Assembly (NCBI RefSeq): GCF_000821245.2
Contig: NZ_LN611424.1
Coordinates: 388,065 to 452,064, forward strand
Direction of reading: 5' to 3'
Length of the DNA: 64,000 nucleotides
DNA from: Virgibacillus senegalensis
Lineage (GTDB): Bacteria > Bacillota > Bacilli > Bacillales > Amphibacillaceae
The notes beneath the pieces are model-generated. The model was not told where the DNA came from. It made no database searches and saw only the letters and a program-made list of their open reading frames with translations. Both the position numbers and the translations under genes were made by a program. Below are positions 60,034 to 64,000 of the stretch, in pieces (positions within the stretch are counted from its first letter, which is position 1; the number at the start of each line of letters is the position of its first letter).

Positions 60034-60488
60034 GGCATCCACCTGATTTTATGAATATGTAGACAAGGAGAAAATAAGTAACCTTACCAGTATAGGTTGG
60101 AAAACGAAGAAATAAACCTGCCAAAAGAGTTGATTTTTCCTTGTGCTTAAGTATAAGATTTTTAATATTGTTGAGTTTATGGTGTGAAGTCCTGTTGTGT
60201 CGATTTTACATAGATAACGTAAGGGCCGTGTGCCAACTCATCAAATACTGAACTTGCGTTTCAAGCAGTCTATTCAGGTAAATAACAGTAGTAATACTTG
60301 TTGATATCAACGTTAACGGAAGGAAAGCAAAATGGACAAAGCCCTTCCGGAGTTTTTGGATGCTATCTGCATGAGGCAAAAAACAGGATAGACGGCCGGA
60401 CAGCTTAAGGATAAGCACGGACGCTTGTGAAAGGGAAAAGATTTAATCAAGAAACTTAAGAAACTCTTCTAAGAAAAGGAGAATGAAC
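60034..60488. other. Divergent region between pbpG and speE, no gene seen
   Basis: About 455 nt. Two partly complementary segments occur, GGAAGG (60318-60323) and CCTTCCGG (60344-60351). No confident promoter for speE or sporulation promoter for pbpG could be read. The ribosome site AAAAGGAG of speE ends the region. Confidence 0.35.
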
Positions 60489-61316
60489 ATGGAATTATGG
60501 TACACGGAAAAACAAACAAAAGATTTTGGGATTACTGCAAAAATCAAGCAATCTTTACATTCTGAGCAAACGGAATTTCAAAAGCTGGACATGCTGGAAA
60601 CAGAAGAGTGGGGGAATATGCTCGTACTGGACGGTATGGTAATGACCACACAGAAGGATGAGTTTGTCTATCACGAGATGGTTGCCCATGTTCCGTTATT
60701 CACCCATCCTAATCCGAAACATGTTTTGGTTGTCGGAGGAGGAGATGGCGGGGTAATCCGCGAAGTACTAAAACATAAGCAGGTAGAATCTGCAACGCTT
60801 GTGGAAATAGATGGCAAAGTAATTGAATACTCCAAGCAATATTTGCCTGAAATAGCCGGTGAATTGGATGATCCCCGTGTCGAAGTGAAGGTTGCGGATG
60901 GATTTATGCATATCGCTGAAAGCGAGAAGGCATATGATGTCATTATGGTCGATTCCACAGAACCTGTAGGACCGGCAGTAAACTTGTTTACAAAGGGCTT
61001 TTATGACGGGATTGCCAAAGCGCTGAAGGATGATGGTATCTTTGTTGCTCAGACCGACAATCCATGGTTTAAAGCAGACTTGATCAAACAGGTTTATCAA
61101 GATGTAAAAGAAATTTTTCCTGTCACACGAATTTATACAGCAAACATTCCGACGTATCCTAGCGGGCTTTGGACCTTCACCATCGGCAGCAAAATACATG
61201 ATCCGCTTAAAGCAAAGGATGAACGCTTTACGGACATAGAGACGAAATACTATACCAAAGAACTCCATTTTGCCTCATTTGCCCTGCCGAAATTTGTTAA
61301 GGATTTAACCGAGTAA
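60489..61316 (+). CDS. speE: Spermidine synthase
   Basis: A 275-residue aminopropyltransferase that makes spermidine from putrescine and decarboxylated S-adenosylmethionine. [19 protein letters not shown] at the N-terminus, the nucleotide loop [16 protein letters not shown] and the catalytic region [14 protein letters not shown] with QTDNPW are diagnostic. ATG 60489 is seven bases after GGAG; ATG 60483 overlaps that site. speB follows 13 nt later in the same operon. Confidence 0.96.
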
Positions 61317-61329
61317 GGAGGTGGATCTG

Positions 61330-62205
61330 ATGCGATTTGATGAAGCTTATTCAGGTAAAGTATTTATCATGTCACGGCCGGATGTAGAAGAAGCCGAGGC
61401 GATTATTTACGGCATGCCGATGGATTGGACCGTCAGTTTCCGTCCGGGCTCACGCTTCGGTCCAAACCGGATACGGGAAGCCTCTCTAGGCTTGGAAGAA
61501 TACAGTCCGTACATGGACAAGCATTTGGAGGAAGTGAATTTTTTTGATGCTGGAGACATACCGCTGCCATTCGGAAACCCGCAGCGCAGCCTTGATATGA
61601 TTTACGATTATGCCCAAAAGGTGCTGGAAAAAGAAAAATTCCCCTTAGGATTAGGCGGAGAACATCTGGTATCCTGGCCGATCATTCAGGCGGTCTATGA
61701 AAAGCATACAGACATTGCAGTCCTCCACATCGATGCCCATGCGGATTTGCGCGAGGAATACGAAGGAGAGCCACTGTCCCACTCGACCCCGATCAGGAAG
61801 ACATGTGAGTTGATAGGACCGGAAAATGTTTACTCATTCGGTATCCGCTCTGGCATGCGGGAAGAATTTCAGTATGCTGAAACTAGCGGCATGCACATGT
61901 CCAAATTTTCGGTCGCAGAACCGTTAAAACGTGTACTGCCAAAGCTTGCCGGGAGAAAAGTGTATGTCACCATCGATATTGACGTTCTTGACCCTGCATT
62001 TGCTCCGGGAACAGGCACAGCAGAAGCGGGCGGTATTTCCTCCAAAGAGCTTTTGGAGGCGATTCAATTAATTGCCAAGGCCGATTTAGAAGTGGTCGGT
62101 GCCGATCTTGTCGAAGTTGCTCCGGTTTATGATCCGACCGAACAGACTGCTATCGCGGCTAGCAAATTTATTAGAGAAATATTGTTAGGCTGGGTTCAAA
62201 AATAA
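61330..62205 (+). CDS. speB: Agmatinase
   Basis: A 291-residue ureohydrolase that splits agmatine into putrescine and urea, feeding SpeE. The two-manganese site motifs GLGGEHLVSW, LHIDAHADLREEYEG and TIDIDVLDPAFAPGTGTAE are intact. ATG 61330 is eight bases after AAGGAGG; a possible start three codons earlier lacks spacing. The arginine decarboxylase that makes agmatine is not in this window. Confidence 0.95.
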   Translation: MRFDEAYSGKVFIMSRPDVEEAEAIIYGMPMDWTVSFRPGSRFGPNRIREASLGLEEYSPYMDKHLEEVNFFDAGDIPLPFGNPQRSLDMIYDYAQKVLEKEKFPLGLGGEHLVSWPIIQAVYEKHTDIAVLHIDAHADLREEYEGEPLSHSTPIRKTCELIGPENVYSFGIRSGMREEFQYAETSGMHMSKFSVAEPLKRVLPKLAGRKVYVTIDIDVLDPAFAPGTGTAEAGGISSKELLEAIQLIAKADLEVVGADLVEVAPVYDPTEQTAIAASKFIREILLGWVQK

Positions 62206-62285
62206 CGTCCAGGTTTAAGATAGGAACGATTCGACAACGTTCTGTTTGAAAATTCTAAGAACTAGAGGATAAATAGTAGAATATA

Positions 62286-62294
62286 TGGTATAAT
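62286..62294 (+). promoter_or_regulatory. Extended -10 promoter of the AimR-like gene
   Basis: TGGTATAAT (62286-62294) is a perfect extended -10 element, 50 nt before the start codon; no clear -35 box. It suggests the gene is not only read from speEB. Confidence 0.6.
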
Positions 62295-62343
62295 CAAGGT
62301 AGATTGCCACTATATGTAGGTTTAGGGGTGGAAAGGGGTAACT

Positions 62344-63417
62344 ATGAAAAACATTGAAGAAAAAAAGATGAAGCCTGTTGGAACTGATGCCGGTTCAATC
62401 CGGGCAAGAAATCAGTTTTTTTTAAAGGAAGGGGAGCTTTCCCTTTTTCATGTTTTTCAATCATTCTCTGTTTCTGATGACATCAACACAGCGATCGATG
62501 TAACCCGCAGCTATTGTTTAAAGGCGAGGGCAAGTGTCAATCAGCGAGTCGGCATGGAATTTTTATATGCCTATGGCTTCCTGGATGATCTTGATTGCCT
62601 CATCGAAAAAAACCTGGCATCCAAGAACCCGAAAAATCGTCAATGGGGACAGTTGTACAAGCTTATCAATCTTCGCAGAAAAAGAAAGCTAAAGACGGAT
62701 GAGTATTTGGAACGATTGAATACATTAGAGGCAGATAGTGTCGAACTCGAATGCTTGCATATGTTTTTGCGTGTGTACGCTCATTTTGAACGAAAAGAAT
62801 ATGGTAAACTGAGCAGTTATTTGGACGGCTTGCTGCTAAACATCCATGAGATAAAGGATCCGCTGCTGCGCGAATTGTTTTCCGTAAGGCTTGATGAAAT
62901 GCTCCTTACCTTCCATTGGAAACGTAATGAAATGATCATTGCCCGGAAGCATGGTTTTCGTATTTTGCAAACCACCCACTGCCCGAGGAAAAAGGTGGAC
63001 ATTCACAATACCATGGCTCTTGGATATTTGTTTGACAGCTATCATCAGGCCATGCAACATGCTATAGAGGCGAAGCGTCTGGCAAATATGATTGAAGATT
63101 TAACGGCAATCCAGGGAATCAACAATTATACCATTCCTTTTATTGCCGCTTTCCACGGAAGAACGGAGGGTATTACCACACCGGTTGAATCCGAAGCGGC
63201 TCATCTTGCGCTTGCCCGTGGTGATGTGACGACTTGTGTAAACATCTTGAGCAACTTCACCAGTTTGACCCCTTTCCAGCAGTACTACTTAGGAAAAGCT
63301 ACCCGCGATGTCGAAATGCTGGAAATCTCTTACCGGCGCTTTGTAAAGGAACGAAGTGACCACTTCTTTGCCAAACTGCCGTTGTTGGAAATGAATAAAC
63401 TGAATGCTGTACATTGA
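62344..63417 (+). CDS. AimR-family (arbitrium receptor-like) protein, apparently without a DNA-binding domain
   Basis: A 357-residue all-helical repeat protein. The pattern VTRSYCLKARASVNQRVGME followed by FLYAYGFLDDLDCLIEK, KNRQWGQLYKLINLRRKRKL, and the later TPR-like helices (YLFDSYHQAMQHAIEAKRLA) recall AimR receptors of phages such as phi3T and SPbeta. The segment equivalent to the AimR N-terminal helix-turn-helix is not seen: only about 55 residues precede YCLK, with no HTH pattern. No aimP-like peptide gene follows; a terminator overlaps the stop. It lies in conserved chromosomal context beside speEB, not in a prophage. Family call is from recalled motifs. Confidence 0.7.
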   Translation: MKNIEEKKMKPVGTDAGSIRARNQFFLKEGELSLFHVFQSFSVSDDINTAIDVTRSYCLKARASVNQRVGMEFLYAYGFLDDLDCLIEKNLASKNPKNRQWGQLYKLINLRRKRKLKTDEYLERLNTLEADSVELECLHMFLRVYAHFERKEYGKLSSYLDGLLLNIHEIKDPLLRELFSVRLDEMLLTFHWKRNEMIIARKHGFRILQTTHCPRKKVDIHNTMALGYLFDSYHQAMQHAIEAKRLANMIEDLTAIQGINNYTIPFIAAFHGRTEGITTPVESEAAHLALARGDVTTCVNILSNFTSLTPFQQYYLGKATRDVEMLEISYRRFVKERSDHFFAKLPLLEMNKLNAVH

Positions 63418-63441
63418 CGCTGCCAAATGGCAGCGTTTTTT
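63417..63441 (+). terminator. Terminator of the AimR-like gene
   Basis: ACGCTGCC (63417-63424) pairs with GGCAGCGT (63429-63436) around AAAT, then TTTTT. It starts at the last base of the stop codon. Confidence 0.88.
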
Positions 63442-63643: not shown

Positions 63644-64000
63644 GTGACATCAGGCAAAACAGCAGTAGATATCAAGTTAACGACCGAAATTTTTGATTTA
63701 GGTCAAAAAGATGTAACCGTTGTGGAAGAAACGGGCAGTTATATACAAAAAGGGGATACCGCTGTCCTAACCTTTACCGAGCATCAGGAACAGGGGGAGG
63801 ATGTCCAGGCTCTGATCACCATTCATCCGGAAAAAGTCAGTGTGAAGCGGACAGGCGCCGTAAGAATGCATCAAGTGTTTCGAAAAAAACAGACGACCGA
63901 AAATGTTTATCGACATGAATTCGGCACCATGCATATGGAAACACATACTGACCAAATTATTTTTAAACAATTAAAAGAGCAGAAAAACGGTGAATTGTTT
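63644..64000 (+). CDS. ywiB: DUF1934 protein YwiB (partial, 3' end outside the window)
   Basis: 119 codons are visible to the window edge. The product TSGKTAVDIKLTTEIFDLGQ and EETGSYIQKGDTAVLTFTEH fits the DUF1934 beta-barrel family to which B. subtilis YwiB belongs. In B. subtilis ywiB precedes argS. The start is GTG 63644, preceded by AAGGGGGTG at about ten bases; no alternative is better. Function unknown. Confidence 0.8.
   Translation, partial: MTSGKTAVDIKLTTEIFDLGQKDVTVVEETGSYIQKGDTAVLTFTEHQEQGEDVQALITIHPEKVSVKRTGAVRMHQVFRKKQTTENVYRHEFGTMHMETHTDQIIFKQLKEQKNGELF

Follow-up and report, generated by a model that had tools for sequence, protein, structure and literature searches.

AimR, the arbitrium receptor of the phages SPbeta and phi3T, is a tetratricopeptide-repeat (TPR) superhelix whose helix-turn-helix (HTH) domain occupies residues 1-59 in the SPbeta protein, with N30, N32 and Y35 as recognition residues (PMC6458997; citations here refer to parts of the papers named). 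Chromosomal AimRs that have no peptide gene have already been reported and were proposed to be 'eavesdroppers', and the same paper describes how RapB, which has no peptide gene either, uses the PhrC peptide of RapC (PMC9765709). A DPG motif is widespread in the peptides of AimR and of Paenibacillaceae subfamily 08, in a sequence tree the chromosomal systems of Alkalihalobacilli (subfamily 21) fall inside AimR, and phages have been proposed to have acquired AimR from an ancestral receptor (PMC12700828). Here we describe a gene of this family, called A below, at positions 62344-63417 of a 64,000-nucleotide stretch of Virgibacillus senegalensis (contig NZ_LN611424.1; the window), and compare it with its sister receptor B, which lies elsewhere in the same genome.

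Gene A is an AimR-family gene whose product lacks the HTH, and it is a chromosomal paralogue with a fixed site. We propose, giving the whole chain of argument a probability of about 0.55, that its product serves as a second, Rap-like receptor for a peptide encoded at the sporulation locus of B, and modulates a step close to the onset of sporulation. Like A, the chromosomal AimRs of PMC9765709 match AimR profiles and have no propeptide gene; the parts of that paper cited here mention neither HTH loss, nor a fixed locus, nor a sister peptide system in the same genome, all three of which A has. The systems of subfamilies 21 and 08 are, by their description, likewise chromosomal relatives of AimR. 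Virgibacillus is among the AimR carriers listed in the literature, where, in the parts available, Rap proteins alone are said to be without an HTH; the main text of PMC10075063, as far as it was available, mentions neither Virgibacillus nor Oceanobacillus. In a literature thinly covered for subscription journals, we found no description of an AimR system at spoIIQ-spoIIID or of an HTH-less AimR clade.

An AimR-family receptor without a helix-turn-helix

Gene A is an open reading frame (ORF) of 357 amino acids with an ATG start. Its parts are as follows.

62344-63417, + strand: coding sequence of A, an HTH-less AimR-family receptor without a peptide gene (profiles, model, fold comparison)
62344-62442, + strand: N-terminal 33 residues, mostly disordered, replacing HTH helices 1-3 of phage AimR (alignment, model)
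62443-63414, + strand: TPR-like superhelix, residues 34-357 (AlphaFold2 model, fold comparison)

The protein is matched by the Pfam AimR profile PF22871 with 243.5 bits (E 3.7e-72; cut-off 26.7), by NCBIfam NF038310 ('AimR family lysis-lysogeny pheromone receptor') with 184.8 bits (cut-off 70) and by PHROG 1728 at E 5.8e-53, and its similarity to AimRs of solved structure reaches E 2e-10. An AlphaFold2 model built from 43 relatives, with a predicted local distance difference test score (pLDDT) of 91, finds its best fold match in AimR 5xyb_B (Z 32.5, root-mean-square deviation 2.5 over 323 residues, TM 0.81). The SPbeta and phi3T receptors share this superhelix (Z about 31-32), whereas the best Rap match of the whole model, Z 22.2 over 291 residues, falls well under the 32.5 of AimR. 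The preliminary description had recognized in A the helical-repeat body of an arbitrium receptor, and both the profiles and the predicted fold bear it out, with AimR nearest and no other TPR family preferred. The ratio of nonsynonymous to synonymous substitution (dN/dS) is about 0.08 against Sediminibacillus halophilus and about 0.09 against S. terrae; against S. albus, dS is saturated.

Unlike the phage receptors, with which it shares some 16-21% identity, A has no HTH and no adjacent aimP, and is not on a phage. In the alignment the equivalents of SPbeta F276, E300 and D360 are kept, while three residues that hold the phage peptide are replaced, N202 by T or I, N206 by K and N239 by L or Q; N202 and N239 are those that anchor the peptide backbone.

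The same description had found the N-terminal HTH region to be missing, and we agree, having met no intact HTH. The columns of SPbeta N30 and N32 are empty in 20/20 A and 43/43 B proteins, in an alignment from which L113 and L154, both broken, were omitted. The model gives residues 1-17 a pLDDT below 50 and places a four-residue helix at 19-22, and no longer helix precedes that of residues 34-44, which coincides with the start of the AimR TPR domain. The open frame holds 363 codons against the 357 of the ORF, and so, with only 6 extra codons upstream, no HTH is concealed in frame 5' of A. Pfam HTH profiles match 0/43 proteins, but they equally miss the HTH of SPbeta and phi3T AimR, so that the absence is read from the alignment and the model and not from the silence of Pfam. 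Over SPbeta positions 5-44 (40 positions), at least 36 are filled in seven of 16 distant family rows, against 25 in the window protein, and two distant family members (L072 and L089) match HTH_3 over the cut-off. A stretch from another family of the order (L083, G041:C7:92176-100440) carries seven AimR-type genes in a row, and the one that was aligned has a full-length N-terminus of HTH size.

A fixed site for A and a sister receptor among sporulation genes

Patterns derived from A and B, with other sites outside their reach, were run over 84,980 species genomes and yielded 63 named loci of two kinds, 20 of A and 43 of B. The closest named relatives of A are from Sediminibacillus (84, 83, 76 and 62% identity), and the 20 A loci belong to Sediminibacillus, Aquibacillus, Terrihalobacillus and Gracilibacillus. 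The gene next behind A is, in 19 of these 20, the one we take to be ywiB, followed in the window genome by a presumed argS; in the remaining locus (L102) the contig ends behind A. A is a single ORF in 19/20, and lies in two pieces in L113. When the stretch before ywiB was examined in genomes outside the A set, none of 11 held a receptor there; a twelfth genome looked at in the same way carries A.

In a quick tree, A forms one clade (SH-aLRT 93) that follows the genera and stands apart from B; the tree was searched without bootstrap and rooted by choice on two phage rows, and cannot give the direction of transfer between phage and host. In the family as grouped, of 159 genomes, the A protein finds a match in 125. 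We counted 31 of these as A carriers, judging by percent identity and by whether a second, lower match accompanied the first. This count leaves out G010 and G178 (matches of 40-42%), since both receptors of G010 fall in the B clade and G178 belongs to that genus too. The shared gene order was observed for the 20 named loci, the window and further fetched stretches, a sample of the 31 carriers. In four named genera, then, A is a paralogue on the chromosome with a fixed place ahead of ywiB-argS. The search for orthologues with the same neighbours, proposed in the preliminary description, gave ywiB as the constant partner and speE and speB as less constant ones.

Gene B, 41% identical to A, is the sole other AimR-type gene of the window genome and lies about 67 kb downstream, out of view of the preliminary description; together with its peptide gene it is what makes A interpretable. 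It is found between spoIIQ and spoIIID in 43/43 named loci, and its HTH is absent as well; two further B-type genes (L045 and L051) lie away from both spoIIQ and spoIIID. One of these belongs to G010, which carries two B-type receptors (L050/L051), one at the spoIIQ locus and the other elsewhere, followed by a DPGYGDVD peptide gene of its own.

Behind B, the window genome has an ORF of 51 amino acids whose leader is hydrophobic and whose last residues are DPDYGEIG. A small ORF with a tail of this DP type follows B in 37/43 named loci (28 by screen and nine by inspection), the tail being degenerate in two of them (L148 and L154); no peptide ORF was seen at the other six (L120, L129, L134, L144, L149 and L155). 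Extra residues follow the tail in L119, L122, L123 and L135. Some propeptides are tandem repeats, with five tail copies in L118 and L125 and at least six in L135; L117 has one also. Several marks of the small-ORF screen were dropped as chance ORFs, namely the second rows in L119, L136 and L137 and rows in L135, L143, L146 and L148.

At eight Gracilibacillus B loci (L161, L162, L163, L164, L167, L169, L175 and L176), the gene is a leaderless mini-gene ending in DPDYGDIG or DPDFGDIG; these escaped the ORF screen and were found by tail pattern or inspection. Its product may be an internal ligand, to judge from its sequence. Unlike A and B, RopB, an Rgg-type receptor, carries a DNA-binding domain. 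Its leaderless communication peptides (PMC10518010) resemble the Gracilibacillus ones in being short and without a signal sequence.

The exact tail pattern detects 27/43 named B loci. As the pattern fixes some codons, only the positions that it leaves free were used as evidence of selection, in a sample of 27 A-bearing genomes of which 26 were typed (G001, identical to G004, was left out) and 25 are distinct. In these 26 tails, seven free first or second codon positions take one or two letters and seven third positions take two to four, which we read as the mark of a translated, selected peptide. In the window genome the pattern occurs only behind B, in two copies, with 0 control matches. There are two copies because the assembly contains a tandem duplication of about 1.65 kb (L034 5790-9660; G000:C6 at about 517.8-521.7 kb), either real or an assembly artefact, which takes in the peptide gene, spoIIID and the 3' end of B.

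At locus A the picture is that of the preliminary description, which had noticed no aimP-like gene after A. Neither strand of the window, nor of any of the 20 named A-locus stretches, contains the tail pattern of the B-locus peptide, and no recurring secreted small ORF was seen up- or downstream on either strand in the 20 named loci. A peptide gene at locus A was consequently rejected, since nothing recurs by the ORF screen or by the tail pattern over whole stretches.

The motif TGTCGAA, the core of the Spo0A box (0A box; PMC3485338), is conserved 5' of B, often extended as TTGTCGAACGATT; by eye, an extended -10-like element follows it at a distance of about 25 bases. The strict box lies upstream of B in 32/43 named loci, against 27/351 regions of other genes there, counted on either strand within 200 bp; the region count took gene pieces, which gave 44 B rows for the 43 loci. 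The looser form TGNCGAA occurs upstream of B in 38/43. In L142 the box is inside a terminator-like hairpin. The spoIIQ upstream regions of the named B loci also carry the motif more often than most other genes there (TGNCGAA in 14/43, strict in 12/43). Furthermore, a receptor match was found in 0/8 family genomes without spoIIID, compared with 125/151 of those with it (159 genomes). The box and spoIIID counts, with their Fisher tests, ignore kinship between genomes.

Proposed ligand and mode of action of the orphan receptor

The case for a shared ligand comes from genomes that have lost B. In G158 and G085, the spoIIQ-spoIIID interval gave no trace of B by tblastn, and PF22871 matches nothing but A in either genome. 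Both retain in that interval a TGNCGAACGATT box (TGTCGAACGATT in G158 and TGACGAACGATT in G085) together with a DPDYGDIG ORF, which has a leader in G158 and is leaderless in G085. In Aquibacillus salsiterrae, B is broken and the tail degenerate. Altogether, the 31 A-bearing genomes have the exact tail beside the B site in 27 cases and a degenerate tail in two. By comparison, 26 genomes from nine genera bear spoIIID without a PF22871 match over the cut-off (14 of these no-match genomes were identified by subtraction from the spoIIID survey, and two, G033 and G134, have weak matches below the cut-off), and the tail pattern stands beside spoIIID in none of them; the four tail matches that they give are all on contigs other than that of spoIIID, and the reversed control gives five. 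A single zero says little, given the sensitivity of the pattern, but 26 of them from nine genera say more. The peptide gene seems to be retained for as long as any receptor remains, even, it appears, when that receptor is A alone. As the peptide is kept with A alone and is not found beside spoIIID without a receptor, we take A to be a receptor of the B-locus peptide.

We picture the system as follows. A would be a cytoplasmic peptide receptor with the AimR fold, an orphan duplicate of B. The tail of the B-locus propeptide (DPDYGEIG here) would be exported, cut and re-imported as in other RRNPPA systems. Phosphorylated Spo0A would switch on B, and the peptide with B, through the conserved 0A box, and A would be expressed from its own promoter, of a sigma-A type. 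The imported DPxYGxxG peptide would bind the TPR groove of A as well as that of B and would alter, in the manner of Rap proteins, the hold of A on a partner protein, much as RapB uses the peptide of RapC. In this way A may tune a step around entry into sporulation.

The preliminary description had already suggested that A works like Rap proteins rather than as a repressor, and this is still the best guess, because A combines the AimR fold with the lack of an HTH and of its own peptide gene, and with a chromosomal site free of phage neighbours. The nearest analogue is RapB of Bacillus subtilis, likewise an HTH-less TPR receptor without its own peptide and with a paralogue in the same genome that has a peptide gene. 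Unlike RapB, A is far from Rap in fold (Z 22 against 32), and its ligand binding and target are putative, drawn by analogy. The sporulation role suggested there gains indirect support through the paralogue B, by its spoIIQ-spoIIID locus, its 0A box and the co-occurrence of receptors with spoIIID.

Several observations weigh against the reading of A as a receptor for the sporulation-locus peptide. The A-bearing genera are related, so that the co-occurrence of peptide and receptor amounts to few events, and the peptide gene was not found in two A-bearing genomes (G020 and G068). The sensitivity of the pattern (27/43) limits each of the zeros in the receptor-less genomes, whose intervals were unchecked for completeness, and in G158 and G085 the peptide might be read by a receptor from a different family. 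The groove residues E185, D219, N222 and T263 of the window protein are nearly invariant among A proteins, whereas B mostly has other residues there. A strict 0A box is present in just 5/21 A regions, the window not among them. In some A proteins the N-terminus is as long as 83 residues, probably through the choice of start codon.

These groove residues, together with the two genomes without a peptide and the promoter of A, mostly without a 0A box, would also fit a receptor for another ligand, peptide or small molecule, with an output unrelated to sporulation. We consider this unlikely, since the peptide is retained where B is lost and A kept, and is not beside spoIIID where there is no receptor; moreover, 16 columns are invariant across the 43 A and B proteins (alignment A2). 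It is improbable that A is mainly a partner of B, as a heterodimer or a competitor for its target, without itself binding a peptide: AimR is a dimer, and in 29/31 A-bearing genomes A is accompanied by one or more other matches, yet A is retained without B in G158 and G085.

That A eavesdrops on phage arbitrium peptides, as PMC9765709 suggests for chromosomal AimRs, is very improbable, for all that A shares with those receptors its AimR match and its want of a peptide gene. The equivalents of N202, N206 and N239, which hold the phage peptide, are changed; the sister gene B has a host peptide gene; and no relative was confirmed in viral contigs, where 25 stretches matched the patterns. The phage AimRs that were found are about 21% identical to A, coming from a tblastn search of 50,697 phage records that gave 12, of SPbeta or phi3T type by name. 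The same records held no match to B at E 1e-3, and a phage origin of A was rejected. The absence of an HTH and of a peptide gene, and one split copy (L113), might suggest a functionless, decaying remnant of a mobile element; this is hardly credible in view of a dN/dS of about 0.08-0.09, a single ORF in 19/20 named loci, four genera and a fixed locus.

The proposal that A reads the peptide of the sporulation locus may be part of a wider picture, which we hold tentatively. In halophilic Bacillaceae there may be a chromosomal, Spo0A-controlled arbitrium-like pheromone system at spoIIQ-spoIIID whose receptors work by protein contact, with the window gene as its second receptor and, in some species, its sole one, with the Gracilibacillus pheromone shrunk to a leaderless internal ligand, and with an ancestor shared with the phage arbitrium receptors. 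A whole branch of the AimR family is without an HTH, and its main site is inside sporulation genes behind a Spo0A box. It would be a host counterpart to phage arbitrium and a candidate sporulation pheromone system across a family of halophiles; if this is true, the lysis-lysogeny decision of phages and the sporulation decision of their hosts may be two uses of one sensor. The two natural losses of B, in which A and the peptide are kept, allow a direct test of the ligand of the orphan receptor.

Surroundings of the gene

The features around A are listed below.

60483-61316, + strand: speE, upstream neighbour, missing beside A in 4/20 named loci
61321-62205, + strand: speB, upstream neighbour (neighbour annotation)
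62230-62236, - strand: weak Spo0A-box core, TGTCGAA read in reverse; S. halophilus and S. terrae have it too
62286-62294, + strand: extended -10 element TGGTATAAT (sequence)
62330-62338, + strand: ribosome-binding-site-like GGAAAGGGG (sequence)
63416-63441, + strand: intrinsic terminator, hairpin and U run (-16.1 kcal/mol, z -4.5)
63644-64000, + strand: ywiB, up to the end of the window, with argS next beyond it (neighbour annotation)

The names ywiB, argS, pbpG and ywhD are those we take these genes to bear from their sequences. The neighbours of A, namely pbpG, speE, speB, ywiB and argS, are housekeeping genes, as they are in 20/20 named loci, which agrees with the earlier remark that no phage genes are nearby; in the window, annotation for phage genes was confined to these adjoining genes. 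A role in polyamine functions, which had also been suggested, is unlikely because speE and speB are missing beside A in four of the 20 named loci (L103, L109, L113 and L132; the search covered the surroundings of A in those genomes), and it was given up as the main reading. Spo0A control of A was likewise dropped, the box at 62230-62236 not being a feature of the A clade. The upstream regions of speB contain TGNCGAA in 8/14 cases, two of them strict, perhaps from the conserved coding sequence of speE. The promoter and terminator that had been ascribed to A are both present, and an extended -10-like element stands at the equivalent place before A in four other species, all of Sediminibacillus.
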